From: Oscillospiraceae bacterium
GTDB taxonomy: Bacteria; Bacillota; Clostridia; Oscillospirales; Ruminococcaceae
Direction: 5' to 3'
DNA: 64,000 bases
Assembly (NCBI GenBank): GCA_017848115.1
Contig: JAGAKZ010000028.1
Location: forward strand, 62,001-126,000
Shown here: positions 11,011 through 64,000 of the stretch, piece by piece
Layout of the letters: each line of letters starts with the position of its first letter
How positions within the stretch are numbered: position 1 is the first letter of the stretch
Translations under genes and position numbers: made by a program
Notes under the pieces: generated by a model
Databases searched by the model: none
Told to the model about the DNA's origin: nothing
The model's input: only the letters and a program-made list of their open reading frames with translations

Positions 11011-13188
11011 TTATTCCTTCATTCTCAGGTCAAGTTGTCTTGTAATCTCCTCAACAGCTTCTTCCGGGGTAAGATGACCTTCAATACATTTTGTTCCGGT
11101 ATCAATGATGATCTGCTTTGTAATCATATCAATATATATCGGTGTGTCAAGGCTTCCAAGCAATTTTTTAAATTCACTTACCTCACTCTCATCCATCCAT
11201 TTACTATAAACTGTCGATCCCCGTGTAACATCAGTGTTCCAATACGAAAAAAAAATTTCTTTATTGTATTTAATTTTGTTTTTTTCATAGAAATTATCAA
11301 GTGTATTACGATTTACCGGAAATCCGTCTCCCAGCTCTGTCTTTTGAACATTATCTGACACGGCACACGCAATAAAATCAAATGCCTCTTCCCTATTCTC
11401 TGTTGAAGCCATTATGCCAAGATTACATACCGGTAAAAATGCAGTACTTCCATTTTTTAAACCAAATCGAAATTCTGTTGAATTTGGATTTTCATAACCA
11501 TCAAATGAAGTTACTATATTTAAGGCATACTCAAATCCATTAACCATACCAATAGTCATACTAACAGATGGATCATACAACGTCATTAACGCATAATCGG
11601 AACAAAAACCAAGATATTTTCGTGGTAAACTAGAACTCATAATAAGTGTTCCTTCAGTACCAAGATCATTATTTTCACATATCCGACAGCATGATTCCAA
11701 AAAAATGGTAAGATATTCTGTATTAATTCCATCATCCGTAAAAATCCGTTCACTCTCACCAATTAAAGCTGTATCCAAAATCCTCCCCATATCAGCCATC
11801 AGAATCGGATATAGTTTTCCTTGTTCCTTTCTGACGCTTTCGGTAAAGTCTGCAATATCTGCTATATTATCTGTATTTGCAAGAATTTCACCGTCACCTA
11901 CTATTCCGAACAATTCAAATTTAGCAGCAACTGAATATAGTTTATCACTTTGACTCCACCTTGCAACATTATCAAGTAAAATATTATCCGGATTCCAACT
12001 GCTTTCATTTTCACTTAGGTCAAGGAGCATATTTTTTTCAATATAACTTTCAATATCAAGTCCATCAAGCAACAGAACATCCGGAGCATCTCCTGAAAGA
12101 ACTGCTGTTGTCAGATTTTTTAGTGCATCATCATAAGTAATTCCTTTTCTCATACCAACTTCATAATCAACACGTACATTCGGATTTTTCATTTTATACT
12201 CCAAAATAATCTGAGATAAAGTATCATTATTATTAAGACTATACACTTTAAGTGTAGATGTAATTTCATTAACAGCATCAGCGTCATAACGATAATGCAT
12301 AATTGTATTGTCATCGTAAGAAACGAAAAAACCGTTATCTGTACTGCAAATTACTGAACAGGCTCTGTATGCAGGATTAGCCATTTTACACGAATAACCA
12401 TCTATAAGCTGTTCAACTATATTTCCTCCCATCACATATCGGTATAAACCTTTATCAGAAAGAATATAAAAAGCCCCTTTCTCTCCACTGCAAATATCCC
12501 TTACAACTTCCCCCTGTTCATTAATAAAATCCTGTATTGCCTCTGGAGTTTCTATAACCATTTCATTTTTATAATCATAGAAAAAAATTTCCTTATCGCT
12601 TATTGCAATAACATAATCTTCGACTACGTCTAATGTCTGTATCAGATTTTCAGAAGAAAAAAGCAAATTTACTTTTTGTCTTTTTGCATCAATTTCATAG
12701 ATACCATAACCTTGAGTTTCATATTTGTAGGCAAATAGACGTCCATCACATGAGTATTCATAATCGTAAAAATAATGATCAAATGAAAGTTTTGAAAACT
12801 GTCCTTCTTCCGTAATCAAAGCGTATTTCATATCATTATAACCCTCTGAATAATCAAAATAACTAATAAAATACTCTCCCATAGGTGAAGACACCATACT
12901 ACTTAATTCAATATTTTCCAAGTTAGAAGAGAGATAATTTATAGGATCACTCACTGTAAATCTATTATTTTCAATGTCTTCTGTATATTTTTCAAAATTT
13001 AATGTATCCAAAAAAACAGGAATATTATTTTCCGTATAAAATTCACTTATATTTCCGTTATGAGATATTTCCTCCTCCACATATCTTCCTTTGTATACAA
13101 TATTTCCTTCATCTTTTGATCCACTGCAACCTGTAATATTAAAAACAACCATAACTGCCATCACTAATGCAATCATTTTCTTACCCAT
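11011..13188 (-). CDS. Large lipoprotein: repeat/propeller-like N-terminal half fused to an extracellular solute-binding domain
   Basis: 725 aa from the ATG at 13188 (AGGAGG ribosome site 8 bp upstream; the in-frame ATG at 13224 lacks one). Signal peptide with lipobox NITGC (Cys21). Residues about 80-305 consist of short repeating beta-strand units with alternating aromatic and acidic residues (YFISYFDYSEGY, LFAYKYETQGYGIYEID, KGAFYILSDKGLYRYV), which suggests a beta-propeller. From about 311 the protein is a family-1-like solute-binding module: TLKVYSLNNNDTLSQIILEY, NPNVRVDYEVG, GDAPDVLLLDG near 378, and a C-terminal EAFDFIACAVSD...GDGFPVNRNTLD. First gene of the operon with two permeases and an efflux adaptor, divergent from the two-component system. 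Two larger paralogues occupy 57.6-63.7 kb. The propeller assignment is inferred; the SBP assignment is firm. Confidence 0.8.
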   Translation of the reverse strand: MGKKMIALVMAVMVVFNITGCSGSKDEGNIVYKGRYVEEEISHNGNISEFYTENNIPVFLDTLNFEKYTEDIENNRFTVSDPINYLSSNLENIELSSMVSSPMGEYFISYFDYSEGYNDMKYALITEEGQFSKLSFDHYFYDYEYSCDGRLFAYKYETQGYGIYEIDAKRQKVNLLFSSENLIQTLDVVEDYVIAISDKEIFFYDYKNEMVIETPEAIQDFINEQGEVVRDICSGEKGAFYILSDKGLYRYVMGGNIVEQLIDGYSCKMANPAYRACSVICSTDNGFFVSYDDNTIMHYRYDADAVNEITSTLKVYSLNNNDTLSQIILEYKMKNPNVRVDYEVGMRKGITYDDALKNLTTAVLSGDAPDVLLLDGLDIESYIEKNMLLDLSENESSWNPDNILLDNVARWSQSDKLYSVAAKFELFGIVGDGEILANTDNIADIADFTESVRKEQGKLYPILMADMGRILDTALIGESERIFTDDGINTEYLTIFLESCCRICENNDLGTEGTLIMSSSLPRKYLGFCSDYALMTLYDPSVSMTIGMVNGFEYALNIVTSFDGYENPNSTEFRFGLKNGSTAFLPVCNLGIMASTENREEAFDFIACAVSDNVQKTELGDGFPVNRNTLDNFYEKNKIKYNKEIFFSYWNTDVTRGSTVYSKWMDESEVSEFKKLLGSLDTPIYIDMITKQIIIDTGTKCIEGHLTPEEAVEEITRQLDLRMKE

Positions 13189-13307: not shown

Positions 13308-13328
13308 AAAAATTGTGAGGTGAGTTTT

Positions 13329-14012
13329 TTGCGAATTTTAATTATAGAAGATGATAAGAAACAATGCTATCTTCTGCAGTTTTGTCTTGAAAAAGAAGGT
13401 TATGCAGTTGATACTTGCTTTGACGGTGCAGAAGCAGGCTACTATCTTGATCAGAATGCATACGACATCGTCCTCCTTGACCGTATGCTTCCGAATAAAG
13501 ATGGTGTCACTATACTTCAGGAAATGCGTACCAAACAGAATATGACACCTGTTATCATGATCACTGCACTCGGAGAACTTTCAGATAAAATCAGTGGACT
13601 TGACAACGGTGCAGATGATTATATTGTAAAACCTTTTGAGTTTGAAGAGCTTATGGCAAGAATCCGCTGTCTGCTTCGTCGTCCGCCAAATCTTGAAAAC
13701 CTTAACCAACTTAAAATCGGTGATGTGATTTACAGTCAGGATACAAATGTACTCACAAGCACCAAAGACAGCTGTACACTTTCCCAGAAAGAAGGAGAAC
13801 TCTTACTTTTGTTTCTGAGAAATCCGAATCAGACTTTACAGAGAAGTACAATTCTTTCAAGAATATGGGGTGCAGACTACGAAATAGAAGACGGAAATCT
13901 TGATAACTATATATATTTTATCCGCAGACGGCTAAAAAACGCAGGAAGCTCATTAAACATCAAAACAATCCGTGGCATTGGTTATCGGTTAGAATCAGAA
14001 AGCGGGAACTAG
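13329..14012 (+). CDS. OmpR/PhoB-family response regulator
   Basis: 227 aa if it starts at TTG 13329, which has GAGGTGAG 6-8 bp upstream; a GTG at 13320 (three codons longer) lacks usable spacing. Receiver domain 1-115 with the acidic pair near residues 7-8 (ILIIEDDKK), phospho-acceptor Asp in DIVLLDRMLP near 51, Thr in MITALG and Lys in YIVKPFEFEEL near 101. C-terminal winged helix about 125-225 (ILSRIWGADYEIEDGNLDNY, RRRL, IRGIGYRLE). Co-transcribed with the kinase 3 bp downstream. It most likely binds the four ATCTCTAAA repeats and controls the divergent lipoprotein/permease/adaptor operon. Confidence 0.93.
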   Translation: MRILIIEDDKKQCYLLQFCLEKEGYAVDTCFDGAEAGYYLDQNAYDIVLLDRMLPNKDGVTILQEMRTKQNMTPVIMITALGELSDKISGLDNGADDYIVKPFEFEELMARIRCLLRRPPNLENLNQLKIGDVIYSQDTNVLTSTKDSCTLSQKEGELLLLFLRNPNQTLQRSTILSRIWGADYEIEDGNLDNYIYFIRRRLKNAGSSLNIKTIRGIGYRLESESGN

Positions 14013-14015
14013 ACT

Positions 14016-15287
14016 ATGTTCAAAAAAGTACATCTTAGGCTGACTATGCTTTTTACTTCTGTCACAACTATGATCATGATTATCATGTCAGCTTTCCACC
14101 TGTACACAAGCCATCGAAGCTTATATAAGAATGCACTTCTGAGTTTTCAGAATGATATCAATACTTTTACAATGAGCTTTGAAAAAAATAATTCTGTATC
14201 TTATGACTGGCTTTTAAATCTGCAAATCAATTATGAATACTTATTTTATATCTATGACAACGGTATCCCATTCAGATTTATGCATGACACTAAAAACCAG
14301 TCCGAACAGAAATTGATCGAAGATATCCGTTATTATTATCATAACAATATCACACCACTTACATCGCCCTATAAGGCTGTACATCAGGAATTTCTCTATA
14401 AGACTGACAGAAATAATTTTCATGTAAGTATTATCACTATTCCCGGTGAAAACAGTATAAGCGAAATATTTGTGGTACACTCTCTCGATATGATAAAAGA
14501 ACAACTACGTATGCTTTATTTGAGATTTGGCATTATAATTATTATAAGCGTTGCTGTTCTGTTTGCATTTTCATGGATATATACAAAAAAACTTTTGATG
14601 CCAATTAAGGAATCACAAGAAAAGCAATCACAATTTATCGCAGCAGCATCACATGAGATCAGAAACCCTGTCAATACAATTCTGTCAGCCCTCGGAGCAA
14701 TGGAAAAAGGCTCTCTGAAACAACAAAAAGAATTTGCCTCCATAGCAGAAAAAGAAGGCAAAAGACTCGCTTGTCTGACAAATGACCTGCTTACACTTGC
14801 AAGAAGTGACAGTCACAATTTTCAGACAACTTTTAGCAGAACAGAACTTGACACCCTTGTACTCGAATGTTATGAAGCCTTTTTGGCTCCTGCAAAAGAA
14901 AGGAAAATCAAACTTTCCATAGAACTTCCGGAAGATAGTATTGTTGCTGATAATGTAGACAGTGAACGTATAAAACAAGTTGTTGCTATACTTCTTGACA
15001 ACGCCATAAGCTATACACAAGAAGGAGGAACTGTAATTATAAGATGTATTCAAACCATAAAATCATATTGTATCGAAGTTGCAGACAACGGAAACGGCAT
15101 TGATGACACATCAAAAAAACAAATTTTTGACCGTTTTTACAGGGCAGATAAATCACGAACGAGTAAATCACATTTCGGACTTGGACTTTCCATTGCAAAA
15201 GAAATTGTAAAACTTCATCATGGAACAATTTCGGTTTCCGATACAAAAGGTGGCGGAGCTACATTCAGCGTAACATTACCCAAATAG
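14016..15287 (+). CDS. VanS-like sensor histidine kinase
   Basis: 423 aa. Two membrane segments (about 8-29 and 168-187) enclose a sensor domain of some 135 residues; a short cytoplasmic linker follows. H-box AASHEIRNPVNTILSALG near 209-226 supplies the phosphorylated His. The ATPase domain has N-box VVAILLDNAISYTQEGG, G1 VADNGNGID, F-box IFDRFYRA and G2 HFGLGLSIAKEI. All catalytic motifs are intact. The gene begins 3 bp after the regulator's stop codon and ends before a terminator. The signal is unknown; the neighbouring efflux adaptor suggests a cell-envelope or antimicrobial-peptide cue, but the solute-binding partner suggests a nutrient. Confidence 0.93.
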   Translation: MFKKVHLRLTMLFTSVTTMIMIIMSAFHLYTSHRSLYKNALLSFQNDINTFTMSFEKNNSVSYDWLLNLQINYEYLFYIYDNGIPFRFMHDTKNQSEQKLIEDIRYYYHNNITPLTSPYKAVHQEFLYKTDRNNFHVSIITIPGENSISEIFVVHSLDMIKEQLRMLYLRFGIIIIISVAVLFAFSWIYTKKLLMPIKESQEKQSQFIAAASHEIRNPVNTILSALGAMEKGSLKQQKEFASIAEKEGKRLACLTNDLLTLARSDSHNFQTTFSRTELDTLVLECYEAFLAPAKERKIKLSIELPEDSIVADNVDSERIKQVVAILLDNAISYTQEGGTVIIRCIQTIKSYCIEVADNGNGIDDTSKKQIFDRFYRADKSRTSKSHFGLGLSIAKEIVKLHHGTISVSDTKGGGATFSVTLPK

Positions 15288-17342: not shown

Positions 17343-17644
17343 ATAAAAATCCCCCCGCACAACATATAAACGTTGTACGAGGGGCAATAATATTGCGGTT
17401 CCACCCTTGTTTTACAGAATATATCAACAAAATCAAAGTTTTTTCTCCCTGATATATCTTCTGTATCTCATTTGTGTTCAGATAACGGAGAACAACCGGT
17501 GTTTGTTAAACACACTCAGAGGACGGTATTCCTAATGAAAAATTTAAATCTCACTCACAGCCAACGGTAAGATCTCTCTGGATAAATTTTAGTTTCAATA
17601 AGACTTTCCTCATCATAGTATTAATAATATTAAATTTCAGATAT
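17343..17644 (-). ncRNA. T-box riboswitch upstream of thrS (Thr specifier)
   Basis: The minus strand carries the T-box core AAGGGTGGAACCGC (17408-17395). It is followed by a terminator hairpin, CCCCTCGTACAAC (17384-17372) pairing with GTTGTGCGGGG and then a T-run ending near 17343. The core sequence is placed to form the competing antiterminator. Upstream, a Stem I region (about 17610-17500) ends in the usual CTCTGAGTG element, and the triplet just before it, ACC at 17527-17525, reads as a Thr specifier codon. Uncharged tRNA-Thr would bind ACC and the T-box, prevent termination and allow thrS transcription. Confidence 0.92.
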
Positions 17645-17650
17645 AAATAT

Positions 17651-17679
17651 ATTATAATACTTTTTTTAAAATAAATCAA
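17651..17679 (-). promoter_or_regulatory. Promoter of the T-box/thrS transcript
   Basis: TTGATT (17679-17674), 17-bp spacer, TATAAT (17656-17651) on the minus strand, giving a start near 17644 and a leader of about 340 nt. Confidence 0.8.
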
Positions 17680-17702
17680 TGGCAATAAAATGGAAATATT
17701 TT

Positions 17703-19880
17703 TTACTGCTGTATAAGCAATGATTTGAGTCTTACAAGATCAAGTATGTCAACTCTGCCATTTTTGTTCATATCAGCCACTGATACCTGCTGTTCTGAAA
17801 ATGATATCTGACTTGTCATATACTTCATCATACTAACAAGGTCTGTTACTGTAACAGCACCATCAAGGTTTATGTCACCCTTAACTTCAGCAGGAGCACT
17901 GTTTGCAGGCGCACCGTAAAGTTTTATTTCTGCTATATTACAGCAGTATACACTGTCTTTGTTCACTCCGTTATTCGGTTTTCCCGAAGGAACATAGTAT
18001 TTTATATATCTGTATGATTTGTTCTTATCAAAAGAATCAACATAATTAAGACCTGCCGGCGGTTTTGAATCTATTGTATGAAGCGTTGTCCAGTTTGTTC
18101 CGTCTTCCGAACCGGCTATCATAGCATCCACTGCTCTGTATTCATAACCAACACGAGGCGCATATGCTATAGCATCAAGCTTGTACGAGCTTCCCAGATC
18201 GATCTGAACCCAGCCGTCACCTACACCATCGAAGAAAGTTGAATTTTTCCCGTCTACAACCATTGTACAATCATTTGATGTATCGTCCCATGCCTTTGAA
18301 CCTGTAACCATAGAAGCATTCAGAGGTATTTCTTTGAGTGATTCACCGGAATCAGACATAGTAACGTTATCTATAACAAAAGTTGTTACTGAGTTAGGGA
18401 TAAGTGTAACATTAAGTTTCTTTCCGCTGATTCCTGCAGGTTGAAGTTCAGCCCAGTTTTCACCGTTTTTCATATTTCCGCTTGTTCTTATTACCTTAGC
18501 GCTGTTTCCTGTACTTTCAAAAGATGACAGATCAAAGTTATATTTCTGATCTGAGCCGGATGTATTTACTGCAACTATCACAAGCTGATCTTTTTCGTCA
18601 TCATATGCAACAACTGTAGAACCTGATGAATTAAGCATCGTAGCTCCCGGTCTTATATATCTTGAAAACTGACCATATGCATAATATTTTTTGGTAAGTA
18701 TGATCTCGTTTTTATCATGGTCTGCTACTGCAAGTCCCCAGAATCCTTTTGAGGTATCAGGCATTCCGCTGTCTTTTTTACCGTTATATCCATTTTTGGA
18801 AACATGGTTGTCTATAGCCTGCCAGAGAATCCACGCAGAACAGCCAAGACCATTACAATCATCTACTATTCTTTTTGCAAGCCAGAGTGCAGGTCCCATT
18901 TCTCCTGCGTTGCTTCCTGCTGTACTTCCGCCGTCAACTTCACTCATCCAGAGATTTTTACCTGCTGTAAGTGCCTGTTCCTGAAGACCTGCTCTGTTAG
19001 AACCGCCATATGTATGCGTATCTATACGGTCAATAGCGTTTTTGGCTTCTGTTGACAGTGCATCAAAAGCTTTTATCTGTACGTCTATTCCGGTTTCATC
19101 TGTTCCGCTTATCAGAACATCGGACATTCCGCGTTCGTCCATGGCTTTCTGCATTTCAATAATCATTTTTGACTCGCTGTTTCCTATATCAAAGTGACAG
19201 CCTTCCTGTTTTTTGCTGTATGCTCCCCAGTAATCAGTATAAGGTTCGTTCATTGGTTCTACACTCTGTATGTCTACACCCCATTCATTTTCAAAATGGT
19301 AACATACATCAGCCATATAGTCAGCAAAATCATCGTAATAATCATCTTTGAGATTATTTTTGTTTGCATCTTTATTTCCTGTACTGCAACCGCTCTGAGT
19401 CATATAGTACGGCGGAGAATTTGAGAACATCTCTACTATAAGATTATCCCCCGTAGCCTCTATAGCTTTGAAAAGCACATTTCTCTGATTGGCGTCCTTG
19501 CTCCAGTCATAAGTAGCCTTTCCGTTGTTATAAACCGTATAACCCGGCATATTTGAGTCAGTACGTGTAATATGGTCATGCGAAGGGTCATCACCGCCAC
19601 CTATGTTGTAACGTGCGATATTCATTCTAAGACCGCTGTCACCGTAAAAAAGCTCTGCAGCTTTACTTGAGAGTGAATCGGAATAACCTATACGGTTTGC
19701 CCACCAGCACAAAGACGTACCCCAGCCTTCAAATTCACCATCATTTATCTTGTATGTGTTATAAGGTGAAATCTTTACTGTTGTATCTGCACTTACCTCT
19801 GTAACAGCTACAAACATCTGTGATGACGCTATAAGCGATACTGACAGTATAGCACTTATAACTCTCTTAAAAATTTTCAT
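17703..19880 (-). CDS. Secreted GH30 glycoside hydrolase with F5/8-type carbohydrate-binding module and type I dockerin
   Basis: 725 aa from the ATG at 19880 (AGGAGG upstream). Signal peptide 1-32. GH30 catalytic barrel about 35-415 plus a beta-sandwich to about 510; acid/base Glu212 in SVEPMNEPYTDYWG and nucleophile Glu314 in LWMSEVDGG. The GWGTSLCWWANRIG and RYNIGGGDDPSH signatures are closer to the beta-1,6-galactanase/beta-1,6-glycanase branch of GH30 than to glucuronoxylanases, but specificity is inferred. Discoidin-like (F5/8 C, CBM32-type) domain about 525-655 (GWVQIDLGSSYKLDAIAYAP). Dockerin about 667-725 with two calcium-loop repeats, GDINLDGAVTVTDLVSMM and ADMNKNGRVDILDLVRL. It would be docked on a cellulosome scaffoldin outside the cell. 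No cohesin gene is in the window. Confidence 0.9.
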   Translation of the reverse strand: MKIFKRVISAILSVSLIASSQMFVAVTEVSADTTVKISPYNTYKINDGEFEGWGTSLCWWANRIGYSDSLSSKAAELFYGDSGLRMNIARYNIGGGDDPSHDHITRTDSNMPGYTVYNNGKATYDWSKDANQRNVLFKAIEATGDNLIVEMFSNSPPYYMTQSGCSTGNKDANKNNLKDDYYDDFADYMADVCYHFENEWGVDIQSVEPMNEPYTDYWGAYSKKQEGCHFDIGNSESKMIIEMQKAMDERGMSDVLISGTDETGIDVQIKAFDALSTEAKNAIDRIDTHTYGGSNRAGLQEQALTAGKNLWMSEVDGGSTAGSNAGEMGPALWLAKRIVDDCNGLGCSAWILWQAIDNHVSKNGYNGKKDSGMPDTSKGFWGLAVADHDKNEIILTKKYYAYGQFSRYIRPGATMLNSSGSTVVAYDDEKDQLVIVAVNTSGSDQKYNFDLSSFESTGNSAKVIRTSGNMKNGENWAELQPAGISGKKLNVTLIPNSVTTFVIDNVTMSDSGESLKEIPLNASMVTGSKAWDDTSNDCTMVVDGKNSTFFDGVGDGWVQIDLGSSYKLDAIAYAPRVGYEYRAVDAMIAGSEDGTNWTTLHTIDSKPPAGLNYVDSFDKNKSYRYIKYYVPSGKPNNGVNKDSVYCCNIAEIKLYGAPANSAPAEVKGDINLDGAVTVTDLVSMMKYMTSQISFSEQQVSVADMNKNGRVDILDLVRLKSLLIQQ

Positions 19881-57616: not shown

Positions 57617-57662
57617 TAAAAAACACCGCAGTCGTCTTTTGTTGCTGACTGCGGTGTTTTTT
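57617..57662. terminator. Bidirectional terminator after dnaJ
   Basis: AACACCGCAGTC (57622-57633) / GACTGCGGTGTT (57647-57658) with A-run and T-run; also ends the convergent propeller/SBP gene, whose stop codon it touches. Core resembles the terminator at 60709-60752. Confidence 0.92.
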
Positions 57663-60618
57663 AGTATCTCTCATTTATAAATAAGTTCATTTTTGGTTGA
57701 ATGCTCTGTGCTACCTGTTCTTCGGAAATTTCTCCTTCAAAATATCCTATGAGTTCTTCCTCGATTATTTCGCTTATTTCAGAATCTATCTGGGCTGTTC
57801 TGCTTGCATTTCTGATAATTTCATCTACCTGCAAAGCGTATTCACTTCTGTTCATCTGACTTTCTTCAAGTTTGGCTTCATAGGCTGATTTTTTTACAGG
57901 GAAAAATGATAAATATTTGTTTGCAAGAGTATTCTGATATTCATCAGTAAAGAAATATCTTATAAATTCCCAAGCTATATCTTTGTTTTCACACTGTTCT
58001 GTAATACTGAAACATACATTAGGTTTTATCAGGTTTTGTCCGCCTTCAAGGCTCGGATATCCTTTTATAAAATAGGTGTCATTCGCTAATTTTTCCATCC
58101 AGTCCACTGATTCAAAACTGTCAATATTAAATGTCGTTATCTCCAGTCCGCCTTGTGAAATACAATCCATATTATGACCTTTGCTGTATTGTTCATTATC
58201 GCAGTACAACTGTGATTTTACAAACTTCAGAAGATTTTTAAAGACATCATTGTCAAAATCACATTTTCTGTTTTCTATATCTACAAAATCAGAAACATAA
58301 CAATACATAAACTTCATAAAAACCTCTGAACGTAACCAATAATCAAATAACGTCTTATCTCCGCTCTTTTCAGAAAAGTTTAAAAATGAATCGTAATCCC
58401 ACTTCTCACCGCTTAGTTCACTTTTGCCTAATAATGTACTTATCGTGAACTGTGGAAAAATTTTATAAATTTTTTCTTTGCTGTTGTAAGCACAAATAAT
58501 GTTCTGTAAAAAATCATCTTTTGAAAATTCAGGATCATTTTCTATAAGATTTATCATATCTGTAAACAGACCTTTATCAGCATACGAAGATAAGGAATCA
58601 GATGAATCGGATATTATTATATCGGGTATATTTTCAGAAACTATATCAAGGTTAAGGTCACTTTCCTTTTCATAAGTTCTCACCTTTATCTTATAATCTG
58701 TATTTTTTTCATTGAAGGACAGCACATAATCATCCGGGATATTGCTAGCAGAATCTCCTATATATGCAAGTTCTATTATCTGCTTACCTGAATTTTCATT
58801 AGTTGGTGACAATATATATATATCAGAATCGCCTGCTTCACACAGAAGATTTCCATATTCATCTATCGCTTTAACAGATTTTATATTATCTATTTCAAGT
58901 GTTCCGATATCATCTATTATTTTAACCAATAAATCACTTTCTGCATTATATCCGTAATAGCTTCTATCATCTCTTATATATAAATCATAAACACTCTCAC
59001 CATTAATGAATCTCGTGTCCTCTTTAATTTCAATATTATCATTTATAATTGATATTTCCTGCTTGCTGTTATCTTCTGTATTATACAAATATATCTTTTC
59101 TTGTTTTCTGTCAATATAGTATAGATAATATACTCCATCTTTTTTTGTCATGCCAACTATATCCGCAAAACTATCAAACTTAAATTCTGAAATGATTTCT
59201 CCATCCTGTGTACAAATCATATGTGTGATATCATCAAACCATGTACTATCCACTTCAGATAAATGTATAAGTACATCACCGCTACTATCTATATCATTTA
59301 TATCATCTTCTAAGTTAATGTCATTTACTACAAGCTCTCTGATACACATTTTCGGCTTACCGTCATCCCCGACCAAAAGCTTTTCACCATAATCCGCATT
59401 TACTGAATCAATCATTTCGCCTTTATTATCTAATATATAAATAATATTTTTCATTGTCAATCCCGGAGGTAATATTTCATATATTTTTCCCTCGTCAATA
59501 TAAACGCATCTGTATACACTCCATATCGAATCTTCCGAAATATAGCCAAATGAAAAAACAGGTTCTTCTTTTCCAAGAATATATCCTTCAACCCCTATTT
59601 CTGTTTGTATCACATAATCAACATCATGGCAAAGGTTAAAATAAAAATCATTTCCCTCTCGCTCAACTTCATACATCTCATTTATACACAAACTTTCCGG
59701 GTCAACAACATCAAAATACATATATTTATCGTCATTTGAATAAAAAGAAACAAGACCATTTGAAAGTGTAGTCATAAAAAAAGCTCCACCTAAGTCACTA
59801 AGATCATCCTCAGAAAAGCTCTTTATAACTTCAAAGTTATCATCAAATACTACTATGCCATATTCATAGTTTTCACTATCATACACTTCGATATACAAAT
59901 TTCCATTTTTATCAATTTCTATACCATATATCTGATAATTTGAATCAGATTTCAAAGCTGATTTTACTTTATCAGATATATCATATTCGGCTTTAAATTG
60001 AAGTTGAGAATCAAATTCATATAATCTCAGTGAATAATCAACTGCATAGAACTTTTTCTTCTTGTTATCATACGAAAATCCGGTAAATAAATCCTGATCA
60101 TAATAATTAATTTTTTCTATTTTATTTTCTGCTTGATTATATGAAGCGATCATAGCAGATAATTTCCCTTTACCATATTCATCTTTGTAATCAATATGTC
60201 CTGAAATAAAGCAGTAATCTTCACTGATTATAGTATCTGTTATGATCATACTTTCATACTCAAACTGTTCCGGCATATTTATCTTAACATATTCATCTGT
60301 ACTGGTTTGAAAATCATGAACCGCAATATGAAAATCGGTTTCAAATCCCTCTTCTCTACATTCCAGATATATTTTAGAATCATTACATACAATATCATTA
60401 ATTGAACATATCTGTTTATTCAGCTCTATCCTTGAAGCATTATAATCATTTGACAATGATATATACTTTCCCTGTTCCTTGGCGATATCAGATATCTCTG
60501 CTACCTCTCCATTGTCTTTTTTATCAGGAGATACTGCTACTTCTAAATTATTGCATGATGTAAATACAAACGCTGACGCTAATAACAGTGATAAAAATTT
60601 ATTTGTTCTTTTTCTCAT
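57661..60618 (-). CDS. Very large lipoprotein: propeller-like N-terminal two-thirds plus solute-binding domain
   Basis: 985 aa from ATG 60618 (AAAGGA upstream). Signal peptide with lipobox FTSC (Cys22). Residues about 40-600 are Asp/Tyr/Ser-rich repeating strands with units like NLYIEVYDSENYEYGIVVFD and GVYYLYYIDRKQEKIYLYN, suggesting one or two beta-propellers. From about 635 to 985 comes a family-1-like solute-binding module: VLSFNEKNTDYKIKVRTYE, NIPDIIISDSSDSL, KPNVCFSITEQCENKDIAWE, FIRYFFTDEYQN, SFFPVKKSAYEAK. Same architecture as 60755-63655 and 11011-13188. It has its own promoter and lies downstream of its paralogue and of an FtsX-like permease. AT-rich codon use, unlike the neighbouring heat-shock genes. 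The function is unknown. Confidence 0.75.
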   Translation of the reverse strand: MRKRTNKFLSLLLASAFVFTSCNNLEVAVSPDKKDNGEVAEISDIAKEQGKYISLSNDYNASRIELNKQICSINDIVCNDSKIYLECREEGFETDFHIAVHDFQTSTDEYVKINMPEQFEYESMIITDTIISEDYCFISGHIDYKDEYGKGKLSAMIASYNQAENKIEKINYYDQDLFTGFSYDNKKKKFYAVDYSLRLYEFDSQLQFKAEYDISDKVKSALKSDSNYQIYGIEIDKNGNLYIEVYDSENYEYGIVVFDDNFEVIKSFSEDDLSDLGGAFFMTTLSNGLVSFYSNDDKYMYFDVVDPESLCINEMYEVEREGNDFYFNLCHDVDYVIQTEIGVEGYILGKEEPVFSFGYISEDSIWSVYRCVYIDEGKIYEILPPGLTMKNIIYILDNKGEMIDSVNADYGEKLLVGDDGKPKMCIRELVVNDINLEDDINDIDSSGDVLIHLSEVDSTWFDDITHMICTQDGEIISEFKFDSFADIVGMTKKDGVYYLYYIDRKQEKIYLYNTEDNSKQEISIINDNIEIKEDTRFINGESVYDLYIRDDRSYYGYNAESDLLVKIIDDIGTLEIDNIKSVKAIDEYGNLLCEAGDSDIYILSPTNENSGKQIIELAYIGDSASNIPDDYVLSFNEKNTDYKIKVRTYEKESDLNLDIVSENIPDIIISDSSDSLSSYADKGLFTDMINLIENDPEFSKDDFLQNIICAYNSKEKIYKIFPQFTISTLLGKSELSGEKWDYDSFLNFSEKSGDKTLFDYWLRSEVFMKFMYCYVSDFVDIENRKCDFDNDVFKNLLKFVKSQLYCDNEQYSKGHNMDCISQGGLEITTFNIDSFESVDWMEKLANDTYFIKGYPSLEGGQNLIKPNVCFSITEQCENKDIAWEFIRYFFTDEYQNTLANKYLSFFPVKKSAYEAKLEESQMNRSEYALQVDEIIRNASRTAQIDSEISEIIEEELIGYFEGEISEEQVAQSIQPKMNLFINERY

Positions 60619-60678
60619 ATCTTTTTTCCTTTCAAAATAAATTTCATAAAATATAAAAATCTTATAATCAAACAAATA

Positions 60679-60707
60679 ATTATACAATATTTTAAAATAA
60701 TTTTCAA
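60679..60707 (-). promoter_or_regulatory. Promoter of the 985-aa lipoprotein gene
   Basis: TTGAAA (60707-60702), 17-bp spacer, TATAAT (60684-60679) on the minus strand, between the two paralogous genes. Confidence 0.7.
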
Positions 60708-60708
60708 C

Positions 60709-60752
60709 AAAAAACTACGCAGTCAGCTTTTACTTTAGCTAACTGCATAGTT
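60709..60752 (-). terminator. Terminator of the 966-aa lipoprotein gene
   Basis: AAACTACGCAGTCAGC (60713-60728) / GCTAACTGCATAGTTT (60738-60753) with two mismatches; T-run on the minus strand. Confidence 0.85.
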
Positions 60753-60754
60753 TC

Positions 60755-63655
60755 CTAGCTTTCTAAAACATAACGTTTTATATCTGTTATAATTTTCTCT
60801 GTTGCTTTATCTTCTTCAATATTATTAAGACACAACTGTTCTATCGTTTCATCTAAAATATTATTTATATATAAACAACCTTTTGGAATCACTCTTGATT
60901 TTTCCAGAAAAATATTCTTTAAATTCTCTGCAAGTGCAGTATCATACGGTTTATATCCATACTGTAAACATTTTGAACGCTCTATATTTGCTTTCTTTTC
61001 AAATGATGATATTTTTATGGGAAACACTTTCATCTCCTCAACTAAATTACTTTGATACTCTTCGTCTATAAACTGCTTTACTATATTCCAAGCTTCATCT
61101 TTATGCGTTGAACTTTTCATGATAAAAGCACAATTAAATAGATTTATATCAAAATTACCATCACTACCGGGATAAGCAATAATATTTTTACTCGTAGAAA
61201 AGCTAATAAAATCTGATACATCACTAAAATTTATACCTGATTTAAAATTTTCATCAAAATTTTTATAACTTAATTTGATTACAGATAAAATTGATTTTAA
61301 TAAATTATAATCAACATCAAATGTTTCATTATCATAATTAATGCAATCATAAATATAACGATATAGAAGTTTATATGTTATTTCTTCATATGTGTTCATA
61401 ATTACTTTGTTTTCATACTCATTATCAAGTGAAAACATATCTTCATATGACCACTCAGGAGAAATATATTTATCAGTATTATTTATAACGAAACTTATAC
61501 CACAACCAACTGCAATCCTATATATATCACTATTATTGTTTTTCAAAAGATTTGTAAAATAATCTTCTTCACTAAAATCTTTTTTAAAATAATTGCTTAG
61601 GTTTTCTACATAACCTTCTGAAACATATCTTTTTAAATCTATTTCATTATCATCATTATAAAAAACTATATCTGGAATATCACCTTTTCCGATTGCCTCG
61701 TTTAATGCCTGTTCATTCTCAAAGTTTGATACTTGTATGTTATATTTATCAGATTCTCTGTTATATTTTCTTAAGATTAATCTGACACTATCATCTTGCT
61801 GTCCTATTTGTGCAACATTAATGATGAACTTGCTGTCATCAATGCTACTGTTGCTATCTTTTCTTTTTAAAGAAGATATGGTGGTATCTCCGGTTATATA
61901 ATCAACGCCATAATACACTAGTTCATTTTCATTAATTACAATAAAATCTTCAACAGAACAATTTAACTCATATTTACTATAGTCAACAATAGTTTTTATT
62001 TCACCACTCTCAAATATGTATCCATACACACCATCATTGTTACTGAAAACAAAAATCTTACTGTCAAGCGTTATCGATGGATTTACAGTGTTTAACTTTA
62101 AATATTCATTAAGCGGTATCTCTGTTATTTCATAATCAGATATCCTATAAAATGTATTACCATCAAATGTATTTAAATAAATATTTATATTATCTTGACT
62201 GTCAGAATATATTTCATAGAAATTATTTATATTTTCCAGACTTTTTTCATATATACACTCTCCGCAACTATCAAATCCGATTATATAAAATATATTTTCG
62301 TTTCTTTTAACAATAAAAATTTCACCCTTACTATTGACACAAAAATCTATAATAACATCATTTTCATTAAGTTCAAGCTGTATTTCAGATTTTTTTATTC
62401 CATCAGAGGATTTAACTTGTATAACATAATCATCATCTGATTTAAATATACTGTAAATGTCATCATTATATGCTACATATACATCATATAATTTCTGATT
62501 ATCATAATAAAATAATGTTTCTGCAACATTATCATGTAATATCTGTATTTTTTCATCAGGATCTGTATCATTATAATATGTAATTAATTCATTTTGCAAG
62601 GTATTATAATGAGCATTGTAAAAATGATGTAAAAGTTTATCATCTTCTTCAAATGCTAAAATTTCATAAGGCGATTCATCTCCGGAAGTAAAACCATAAA
62701 CACTGTCATCACTAATATGAAAGAAATCATATTCCTCATATCCTTTTATTATTTTTAGTTCAGTGTCTTCTATCGTATAAGAATTTATAACTTTTCCTGT
62801 ATATCTATCATATTCATCTAAAAATGTTACTCCACTCTCATAATCAGGAACTTCAAATAAAAGATTACCACTATTTAATGTATAAGATTTTCTTAATGAT
62901 ATATCTTTTAAATTAATATCAAATGGCAATCTCGAAATATCTTCAAAAAAATCATTAACAGTTACAAAAATTATATCTAATGTATCCTTATTTATACAAC
63001 ACATATCTATAAAAGTATTGGTGACATCTAAAAACATTACATTATAGCCACTCATATCGAATTTATCACATATATTTATATAATGGTTTATTTCGTTAAG
63101 TTCGCTATCATAAATTGTAATATAATCTTCGATATTATTATTTATATTAACGACATCAAATACAACAATTTTATCCTGAAAAAAATATATAAGCGGTTCT
63201 ACAACAACTTTGTTATATTGTGCACTTCTAATTAACTTTCCGGTATCACGATTAATTATTCCAATATAATTATTATAATCTTTCTCATAAATGATAAAAA
63301 TGCTTTTTTCATTGCTACAACTCTCGTAAACATAAGAACAATTAATATCTGTATCTATATAATTTATTTCTAAATTATCCATATCAACAAATCCCAGCTC
63401 AAGCATTTTAGAACTGAAAGTATCATAAGTTGATAAATAAATATTTTTATTTCCAACAAATATATTATTAATATCGTCATTATTCAAAGTCGCTATGTTA
63501 CTCTCATCAAAACTTTGTGGCTCTATTGTTGAAGATATTACAATATCATCATCTCTTACATAACTTTTTCTTACAAAATTTGTATCTTTAGCATTTTTAT
63601 TGCAACCTAAAAAAAACAAAACCATAACTAAAATTAATCCGATAATCTTCTTCAT
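60755..63655 (-). CDS. Very large lipoprotein, paralogue of the 985-aa propeller/SBP protein
   Basis: 966 aa; GGGAGG before the ATG. Signal peptide with lipobox FLGC (Cys18). Residues about 45-620 consist of Asp/Ile/Tyr/Asn-rich strand repeats (NIFVGNKNIYLSTYDTF, KGEIFIVKRNENIFYIIGFD, DNINIYLNTFDGNTFYRISD), probably a propeller. SBP part from about 635: LRKYNRESDKYNIQVSNFEN, GKGDIPDIVFYNDDNEIDL, NLFNCAFIMKSSTHKDEAWN, VKQFIDEEYQSNLVEEMKVF. Its ATG overlaps the stop of the upstream FtsX-like gene (ATGA), so it is translationally coupled to an exporter-type permease instead of to importer permeases. Low-GC, Asn/Ile-rich composition. Confidence 0.75.
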   Translation of the reverse strand: MKKIIGLILVMVLFFLGCNKNAKDTNFVRKSYVRDDDIVISSTIEPQSFDESNIATLNNDDINNIFVGNKNIYLSTYDTFSSKMLELGFVDMDNLEINYIDTDINCSYVYESCSNEKSIFIIYEKDYNNYIGIINRDTGKLIRSAQYNKVVVEPLIYFFQDKIVVFDVVNINNNIEDYITIYDSELNEINHYINICDKFDMSGYNVMFLDVTNTFIDMCCINKDTLDIIFVTVNDFFEDISRLPFDINLKDISLRKSYTLNSGNLLFEVPDYESGVTFLDEYDRYTGKVINSYTIEDTELKIIKGYEEYDFFHISDDSVYGFTSGDESPYEILAFEEDDKLLHHFYNAHYNTLQNELITYYNDTDPDEKIQILHDNVAETLFYYDNQKLYDVYVAYNDDIYSIFKSDDDYVIQVKSSDGIKKSEIQLELNENDVIIDFCVNSKGEIFIVKRNENIFYIIGFDSCGECIYEKSLENINNFYEIYSDSQDNINIYLNTFDGNTFYRISDYEITEIPLNEYLKLNTVNPSITLDSKIFVFSNNDGVYGYIFESGEIKTIVDYSKYELNCSVEDFIVINENELVYYGVDYITGDTTISSLKRKDSNSSIDDSKFIINVAQIGQQDDSVRLILRKYNRESDKYNIQVSNFENEQALNEAIGKGDIPDIVFYNDDNEIDLKRYVSEGYVENLSNYFKKDFSEEDYFTNLLKNNNSDIYRIAVGCGISFVINNTDKYISPEWSYEDMFSLDNEYENKVIMNTYEEITYKLLYRYIYDCINYDNETFDVDYNLLKSILSVIKLSYKNFDENFKSGINFSDVSDFISFSTSKNIIAYPGSDGNFDINLFNCAFIMKSSTHKDEAWNIVKQFIDEEYQSNLVEEMKVFPIKISSFEKKANIERSKCLQYGYKPYDTALAENLKNIFLEKSRVIPKGCLYINNILDETIEQLCLNNIEEDKATEKIITDIKRYVLES

Positions 63656-64000
63656 GCCCTGCCTCCCAGAAGTGATGTAATAGATTTATTCCTTACCCTA
63701 AATATAAATAAAAACGATACAAACAAACTATATATCATCATAACGATTTCCAAAATAAACAGAATGCTAAAATCACAAACTTTAAAAACATCAAAATAAT
63801 CCGATAAAATTACTTTCAAAATCTGTGACAATCCTATTGATATCACAAAACCTATCATAGAAGAAATTGTGGTCACCATAATAAAATTTATAAAAATCAT
63901 GGTTAATATATCTGTTGACTTATATCCAAAGCAAGTCATAAATATGTAATTTGTTTCATCGTTCATAATTTTTTTTACCATAAAAATAAATAATGTAATC
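63652..64000 (-). CDS. FtsX/MacB-like ABC permease, C-terminal fragment (5' end beyond the window)
   Basis: The open frame continues through the right edge without a stop, so an apparent ATG at 63981 is internal. Visible are about 115 residues: the end of one membrane helix (ITLFIFMVKK), the FtsX-typical turn NDETNYIFMTCFGYKSTDIL, a second helix (IFINFIMVTTISSMIGFVIS), a loop (ILSDYFDVFKVC) and the last helix FILEIVMMIYSLFVSFLFIF ending RVRNKSITSLLGGRA. This is the membrane end of a MacB/LolC/FtsX-family permease. Its ATPase and adaptor are presumably encoded just outside the window. Confidence 0.7.
   Translation of the reverse strand, partial: ITLFIFMVKKIMNDETNYIFMTCFGYKSTDILTMIFINFIMVTTISSMIGFVISIGLSQILKVILSDYFDVFKVCDFSILFILEIVMMIYSLFVSFLFIFRVRNKSITSLLGGRA

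Follow-up and report, generated by a model that had tools for sequence, protein, structure and literature searches.

Genes at the locus

We begin with two large lipoprotein genes, P0002 and P0003, that lie at the end of a 64,000-nucleotide stretch of DNA (the window) from Oscillospiraceae bacterium (GenBank assembly GCA_017848115.1, contig JAGAKZ010000028.1, positions 62,001 to 126,000). A first-pass annotation of this DNA had described them as lipoproteins of 985 and 966 amino acids (aa), each a propeller fused to a solute-binding protein (SBP), and had tied them to an FtsX/MacB-like permease. Both open reading frames (ORFs) are present on the minus strand (Table 1), and the 4-bp overlap claimed between lipoprotein and permease is seen as the ATGA at 63652-63655, where the start of P0003 lies on the stop of the FtsX ORF. 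Taking TTG as an alternative start gives a P0002 of 1008 aa instead of 985. By eye, both proteins have a signal-like N-terminus followed by a lipobox-like cysteine (C22 in P0002, C18 in P0003).

The window ends inside the permease gene. The extended locus (L007) covers 11 kb beyond this edge (L007 9001-20000), and the order upstream from P0003 is a small FtsX permease (FtsXs, 200 aa), FtsX1 (412 aa), ATPase1 (220 aa), a gap of 450 bp, FtsX2 (412 aa) and ATPase2 (234 aa), with FtsX1, ATPase1, FtsX2 and ATPase2 occupying L007 9267-13554. An ATPase and a second permease, which the first-pass annotation thought might precede the lipoprotein past position 64000, are therefore both found (ATPase1 and FtsX1, plus the FtsX2/ATPase2 pair). 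The adaptor it named alongside them is not; no HlyD-like, adaptor or MacB-core protein is labelled in L007. Upstream of ATPase2 is a CotH-dockerin protein of 723 aa (CotH 138.8 bits, Dockerin 38.5 bits) and, beyond it, two large proteins and an ATPase-like fragment can be recognized by eye.

Table 1. Coordinates in the window of the lipoproteins, their approximate halves and the adjoining genes.
Feature	Position	Strand	Basis or remark
P0002, 985-aa propeller-like + SBP lipoprotein	57661..60618	-	ORF call, SBP_bac_8 46.7 bits; last gene of the cluster
P0002 propeller-like half, residues about 45-605 (approximate)	58804..60486	-	profile A4, internal repeats
P0002 SBP half, residues about 610-985 (approximate)	57664..58791	-	Pfam; CbpC nearest solved relative
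P0003, 966-aa propeller-like + SBP lipoprotein	60755..63655	-	fourth gene of the ATPase-FtsX-small FtsX-lipoprotein unit
P0003 propeller-like half, residues about 40-600 (approximate)	61856..63538	-	internal repeats, profile A5
P0003 SBP half, residues about 607-966 (approximate)	60758..61837	-	profile A5 against CbpC
Small FtsX permease (FtsXs), 200 aa, 3' part	63652..64000	-	whole gene L007 8652-9254; PF02687
P0004, 725-aa relative with shorter N-half	11011..13188	-	SBP_bac_1 34.7 bits, cut-off 26
MalF-type permease adjoining P0004	10155..11006	-	3e-55 to L041 permease 17638-18534
MalG-type permease adjoining P0004	9304..10221	-	1e-56 to L041 16724-17641 (BPD_transp_1 57.9 bits)
HlyD-like protein adjoining P0004	8253..9299	-	8e-17 to L041 14871-16694 (HlyD_3, Biotin_lipoyl_2)

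Probable two-part architecture of the lipoproteins

In a Pfam search, the SBP half of P0002 passes the cut-off of its family (46.7 bits for SBP_bac_8, cut-off 27), P0003 alone fails (SBP_bac_6, 15.7 bits vs 24.6), and no propeller is reported in P0002, P0003 or P0004. We use two profiles, A4 built from 50 relatives and A5 built from 27 relatives and led by P0003. When the SBP part of each is compared with solved binding proteins, the best match is CbpC of Clostridium thermocellum (PDB accession code: 7x0o), at 3.3e-45 for A4 and 6.3e-46 for A5; P0002 as a single sequence reaches 6.7e-7, and the structural relatives of its SBP half are, in order, CbpC, 4r6k and YesO. The first part of both profiles matches designed and natural propellers (among them Bagel8, Cake10, a PQQ protein and NHL proteins). 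On self-comparison the N-half contains internal repeats, the best off-diagonal match having a probability of 97.8% in P0002 and 99.1% in P0003, and the C-half contains none, with every off-diagonal match listed below 1%. P0002 and P0003 are thus likely, as judged from sequence, to join a propeller to an SBP. The assignment of the two halves in the first-pass annotation is borne out by profiles and repeats, although not by Pfam, where the propeller is missing.

The two genes are distant paralogs (25% identity over 405 aa, E 1e-19), and a recent duplication is ruled out by this identity together with their placement in separate clades of the tree.

The SBP half of the family aligns with most of CbpC, which is a chain of 438 aa with no propeller and whose transporter is treated as a sugar-type ATP-binding cassette (ABC) system in the available text of its study (PMC9601137). 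According to the same text, CbpC bound none of the sugars tested, its pocket is reported to be blocked, and growth of the transporter mutant was normal with glucose, cellobiose or Avicel. A figure legend there places an acrA gene among the transporter operons, the particular operon being unstated (PMC9601137).

A predicted asymmetric FtsX-type machine

All three permeases of the cluster pass PF02687 (FtsXs 27.3, FtsX1 31.3 and FtsX2 32.8 bits; cut-off 25.5). By hydropathy only, each is predicted to have four transmembrane segments (TMs), and FtsX1 and FtsX2 to have a large first outer loop. The pair next to P0003 is lopsided in the same hydropathy reading: FtsX1 has about 240 residues outside the membrane, and its small partner about 33 here and in the corresponding unit at locus L164, and 95 in that at L008. 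A review of these transporters states, in the text available, that to its authors' knowledge no member lacks the Porter part of the outer domain (PMC5985334), which would make a partner permease with a 33-aa loop unusual.

ATPase1 has regular motifs. Its best NCBIfam model is LolD, followed by the bacteriocin-export model TIGR03608 (Lcn972-type bacteriocin ABC), and it stays under both cut-offs (209.7 of 307.75 bits and 190.4 of 254.85 bits). In ATPase2 the signature stretch is altered and an asparagine stands at the expected catalytic glutamate.

As a comparison, the cluster resembles the FtsX/LolCDE/MacB (type VII) systems in its LolD-like ATPase and in the four-TM FtsX1 and FtsX2 with their large first outer loops. 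It differs from them in having no adaptor in the stretch examined, a near-loopless partner permease, a giant lipoprotein and an ATPase under the LolD cut-off. In the available text of the review, type VII proteins couple ATP hydrolysis to movement outside the membrane with no substrate crossing (PMC5985334).

One explanation is that the cluster is a MacAB-like exporter, in which the lipoprotein would replace the adaptor and guide a peptide or lipoprotein substrate outwards. The FtsX family permeases, the order of the best ATPase models and the HlyD-like and MacB-core proteins found in MalF/MalG operons of relatives speak for it. We nevertheless consider it improbable, given the two ATPase scores and the missing adaptor; because no adaptor occurs in the stretch examined, MacAB as such is excluded for the window machine. 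A small bacteriocin gene between ATPase1 and FtsX2 was also considered and rejected, the gap holding only ORFs of at most 47 aa.

Recurrence of the four-gene unit

The order ATPase, FtsX, small FtsX and lipoprotein is found at L007, L008, L164 and L201, which are all four of the full matches of the P0003 subtype. As L201 (genome G010) is the ortholog of L008 in the present genome, with a small FtsX 99% identical, only three of the four occurrences are independent, and the unit is known from three genomes. The L164 proteins, which come from a different genome of the genus, are 60% (ATPase1), 32% (FtsX1), 33% (small FtsX) and 32% (lipoprotein) identical to those of the window unit, and the clade of P0003, P0005 and L164 has a support of 100 (FastTree). 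The search for the subtype covered 396 genomes sampled from the family, with at most two candidates scored per genome; besides the four full matches it gave weaker ones in four further genomes, and nothing at E 1e-40 outside the genus. A related, though not the same, layout with two larger FtsX-type permeases is seen at L010 and L050.

In the present genome, four FtsX operons adjoin the 20 full-length family genes, against an expectation of about 0.15 (P about 2e-5), a rough and post hoc estimate that assumes 3000 genes and counts 22 FtsX loci by hand.

The upstream gene at L164 is unrelated to the CotH-dockerin gene, and CotH as a conserved partner is therefore rejected. This bears on a second explanation, that the lipoproteins sense fibre or glycans: they would read plant-polysaccharide fragments, and the FtsX machine would regulate cell-surface enzymes in the manner of FtsEX. 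The CotH-dockerin gene directly upstream of ATPase2, the order of structural relatives of the SBP half (CbpC, 4r6k, YesO), the 27 of 171 relatives assigned to sigma factors of the extracytoplasmic function (ECF) type and the action of FtsEX on wall hydrolases, as given in the portion of the literature available, all fit such a role. Since the CotH neighbour is not kept and CbpC bound no tested sugar (PMC9601137), we judge it unlikely.

Variation between two close genomes

A 97% identical copy of P0002 is present in Ruminococcus sp. SIG549 (L057), and the flanks of L007 and L057 are about 99.5% identical. Between mid-ATPase2 and the FtsX2 end (L007 11568-13300), 150-base windows drop to about 61-86% identity; 5.9 kb with ATPase1, FtsX1, the small FtsX and P0003 are then absent from L057, after which P0002 resumes at 97.6%. 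The pattern looks, at the sequence level, like cassette exchange. Such exchange is known from competition loci and is no proof of one. The GC content of the four unit genes (24-32%, vs 35% for the window) says little on their origin because relatives elsewhere are also low (28-35%).

A third explanation is a chance neighbourhood or passenger genes: recombination would have placed surface paralogs, namely P0002 and perhaps P0003, next to FtsX genes. The locus is indeed cassette-variable, with P0002 conserved and FtsX2 diverged, and encounters of this sort become likelier when a genome holds 20 paralogs. Against it stand the FtsX adjacency above the rough expectation and the conservation of the four-gene order in a second genome, where identities are 32-60%. 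Being passengers is accordingly an account to which we assign a small probability for the pair; it is unlikely for P0003, and P0002 may be such a passenger.

The family and its neighbours

A profile of five paralogs matches 30 stretches in the present genome, where 20 full-length genes lie in the loci examined. With near copies included, 171 full-length family genes were found in all the DNA examined. A match occurs in 18 of 81 genomes (80 relatives and the present one), including all 11 of the genus with this one counted, and a scan of named genomes gives 72 loci, most of them under the names Ruminococcus, other Oscillospiraceae or Lachnospiraceae. We infer that this is a lineage-expanded family of extracellular receptors, with P0003 and P0002 among its members.

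Neighbour classes were assigned with small local profiles and distance rules, of which the strict one defines an operon by strand and gaps and the looser one by distance; 39 shorter or partial genes were excluded from the counts. The simple gene picker used misses some genes (at L008 the small FtsX had to be entered by hand, and a MalF gene was lost at L056), and the named and congeneric loci overlap partly, as G010 contig C72 shares its layout with the L057 contig. By the looser rule, MalF/MalG-type permeases accompany 42 of the 171 genes, ECF sigma factors 27, FtsX 10 and DUF1430-like permeases four, and 88 are unassigned. The present genome contributes 20 (FtsX 5, in four operons; DUF1430-like 2; MalF/MalG 2; sigma 6; other 5), nine congeners 70 (FtsX 1, DUF1430-like 2, MalF/MalG 8, sigma 18, other 41), the named loci 77 (FtsX 2, MalF/MalG 32, sigma 3, other 40) and G010 four (FtsX 2, other 2). 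Some propeller-SBP genes are split into at least two ORFs (L055 7503-10300, and L154 and L193 in congeners), probably as broken copies or assembly errors; L055 and some of the split congeneric genes were kept apart.

A tree of 106 genes was made from the 171 by leaving out 48 named genes of the "other" and sigma classes and dropping 17 near copies. On this tree the class labels need 17 changes, vs 51.0 when shuffled. Random neighbours, which would have undone the first-pass proposal, are thus not what is seen, although the clustering partly reflects relatedness.

The MalF/MalG operons

By the strict rule, 34 of the 171 genes lie in MalF/MalG operons, 31 of these with an HlyD-like protein and 30 also with a MacB-core protein, which is found with none of the 137 genes outside such operons. 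The looser rule gives HlyD-like proteins for 39 and MacB-core proteins for 24 of the 42 MalF/MalG genes, and a MacB-core protein for 1 of the 129 others. In this genome the hybrid operon at L041 (8508-18534, G000:C102) combines MalF/MalG-type permeases, an HlyD-like protein, a MacB-core protein and a propeller-SBP lipoprotein; its MacB-core protein, the member examined, has only two predicted TMs. Many hybrid operons of congeners also encode a further lipoprotein, about 630-660 aa long, whose match to the profile is confined to its first part. In Clostridium manihotivorum (L125), a propeller-free relative that matches CbpC at 4.2e-41 stands beside MalF/MalG-type, HlyD-like and MacB-core genes.

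P0004 in the window also has MalF/MalG-type permeases and an HlyD-like protein as neighbours. The first-pass annotation gave it the same layout as P0002 and P0003, which holds for the SBP half and for the similarity to P0002 (E 3e-8; 0.011 to P0003), and is doubtful for the N-half, which is much shorter in a protein of 725 aa. A response regulator and a histidine kinase (by eye, window 13320-15287) diverge from the P0004 operon.

These operons bring in the fourth explanation, an ordinary importer whose binding protein is incidentally fused to a propeller. An SBP Pfam domain is present and the MalF/MalG neighbours are the largest assigned class (34 by the strict rule, 42 by the looser). The CbpC data count against it, and we know of no FtsX permeases that act as importers. 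The available text of the MacB review, with its account of work outside the membrane (PMC5985334), also counts against it. The window machine is probably not an importer, and as an account of the lipoproteins this explanation is highly improbable.

The tie to exporter parts proposed in the first-pass annotation can now be restated. It is real for the FtsX permeases and ATPases at the window locus and for the HlyD-like and MacB-core proteins of the MalF/MalG relatives, and it is not general. That these lipoproteins work as a rule with MacAB-like machinery is not supported: no adaptor is labelled in L007, P0004 neighbours MalF/MalG and HlyD-like genes, and more than half of the family carries no labelled neighbour from the assigned classes.

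Sigma-linked and DUF1430-like contexts

An ECF-type sigma factor gene lies upstream of a propeller-SBP gene at L042, L045, L047, L054, L134, L141, L149, L150, L155, L156, L158, L159 and L162; the one at L045 scores 74.8 of 42.9 bits. Among the 11 congeneric sigma-linked genes that have no lipobox, ten begin with a short stretch followed by a TM at about residue 53-89; the remaining one represents the second part of a gene that is split. Most sigma-linked genes that lack a lipobox encode such a short N-terminal stretch, often bearing a shared motif, and a single TM. L047 was scored as a lipoprotein by script, and its start reads like the TM type. No labelled permease of the classes sought lies alongside the sigma-linked relatives. 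From the N-terminal stretch, the TM and the gene order, the TM-type relatives are likely to be anti-sigma receptors. RsgI-type anti-sigma factors carry outer sensor domains. The relatives resemble them in having a short N-terminal stretch, one TM and a module outside, and differ in having ECF sigma factors; by this analogy they would serve as anti-sigma factors. Secreted-looking proteins are encoded directly before propeller-SBP genes at L046 (10290-10928, SH3_3 28.9 bits) and at L049 (2586-3284, with no match).

DUF1430-like permeases and ATPases adjoin relatives at L048, L052, L175 and L180; the labels at L048, L055, L175 and L180 come from a local profile. At L052 (7963-17692, on the window's contig G000:C36 but outside the window) the genes encode a LytTR regulator, a 422-aa protein, AgrB, a mediterrocin-family bacteriocin (81.2 bits, cut-off 40), the DUF1430 permease, an ATPase and a 180-aa protein, and the propeller-SBP lipoprotein follows about 325 bp past the last. 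Lactococcin 972/mediterrocin loci with a DUF1430 permease and ATPase are described in the available text of two papers (PMC12345188, PMC11796350); L052 is such a locus in the present genome with a lipoprotein relative, and the window locus differs in that no bacteriocin is recognized there. In those available texts the word "lipoprotein" is found in neither paper, and "solute-binding" is not found in PMC12345188. Our literature search, with subscription journals largely outside it, gave no paper on a propeller-SBP fusion with FtsX, HlyD/MacB or anti-sigma factors. The sigma and L052 contexts speak for a receptor rather than for a protein that feeds a permease, and neither proves it.

A proposed receptor reused with different machines

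Combining this information, we propose that P0003 is a modular extracellular receptor and works here together with an asymmetric FtsX-type (type VII) ABC machine, a tentative reading that we hold at somewhat under even. Anchored in the membrane, the receptor would pair a propeller-like half with a binding-protein half of the CbpC type, and it would be reused with different output machines. At the window locus it may form a four-part complex with a LolD-like ATPase dimer, the 412-aa permease with its large outer domain and the 200-aa partner. P0003 would dock on the FtsX machine as its receptor and may replace the outer domain missing from the 200-aa permease. Use of ATP inside the cell would then change the shape of the complex outside (mechanotransmission) with no import, and a ligand in the SBP half would signal when, or on what, the machine acts. 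For P0002 a place in the machine is less sure.

The purpose can be guessed as protection from, or response to, envelope-active competitors, and the machine may play a part in competition or in protecting the envelope. Gram-positive type VII members are tied to toxin protection, to bacitracin sensing and, with a question mark, to bacteriocin export in the available text of the review (PMC5985334).

Several observations weigh against this proposal. The propeller-SBP architecture is read from sequence profiles, not from a fold, and an older study cited in PMC9601137 had CbpC binding sugars, according to the text available. At the locus, P0002 is 97% identical between the two close genomes and the adjoining FtsX2 62%, and P0002 and FtsX2 are therefore not evolving in step; signature and Walker B are degenerate in both ATPase2 versions (L007 12850-13554 and L057 2339-3043). 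No bacteriocin is recognized in the gap before ATPase1, and the single small protein tested per locus at L008, L010 and L050 gave none either. Coupling to FtsX, judged with a small local FtsX profile, is found for 1 of the 70 full-length genes of nine congeners, and none of the classes sought is labelled beside 88 of the 171 genes. The FtsX label alone hardly clusters on the tree (5 changes, a value that 51 of 500 shuffles do not exceed), partly owing to the wrong label "other" that L008 carries there. Of L052 and L048, tested with Pfam DUF1430, only L052 passes, and barely (29.2 of 28.2 bits), and all three tested with the NCBIfam model TIGR01654 (L052, L048 and L055) fail.

As to origin, the module may have arisen in clostridia from a CbpC-type protein of a hybrid ABC system with MalF/MalG, HlyD-like and detached MacB-core components and become the outer sensor of at least three unrelated machines (ECF sigma/anti-sigma switches, FtsX-type ABC machines and DUF1430-like ABC machines of the bacteriocin type), being in the window part of a receptor-gated asymmetric type VII ABC complex; we regard this history as possible, again with slightly less than balanced confidence.

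Binding proteins are usually read as a sign of uptake. In this Ruminococcus-type lineage, one kind appears to have lost that tie and to have been put to new use as an outer receptor. If this is true, a share of the "extracellular solute-binding protein" annotations in these bacteria would be misread, and the receptor-FtsX unit would be a simple four-gene system for the control of a type VII ABC machine by a lipoprotein.

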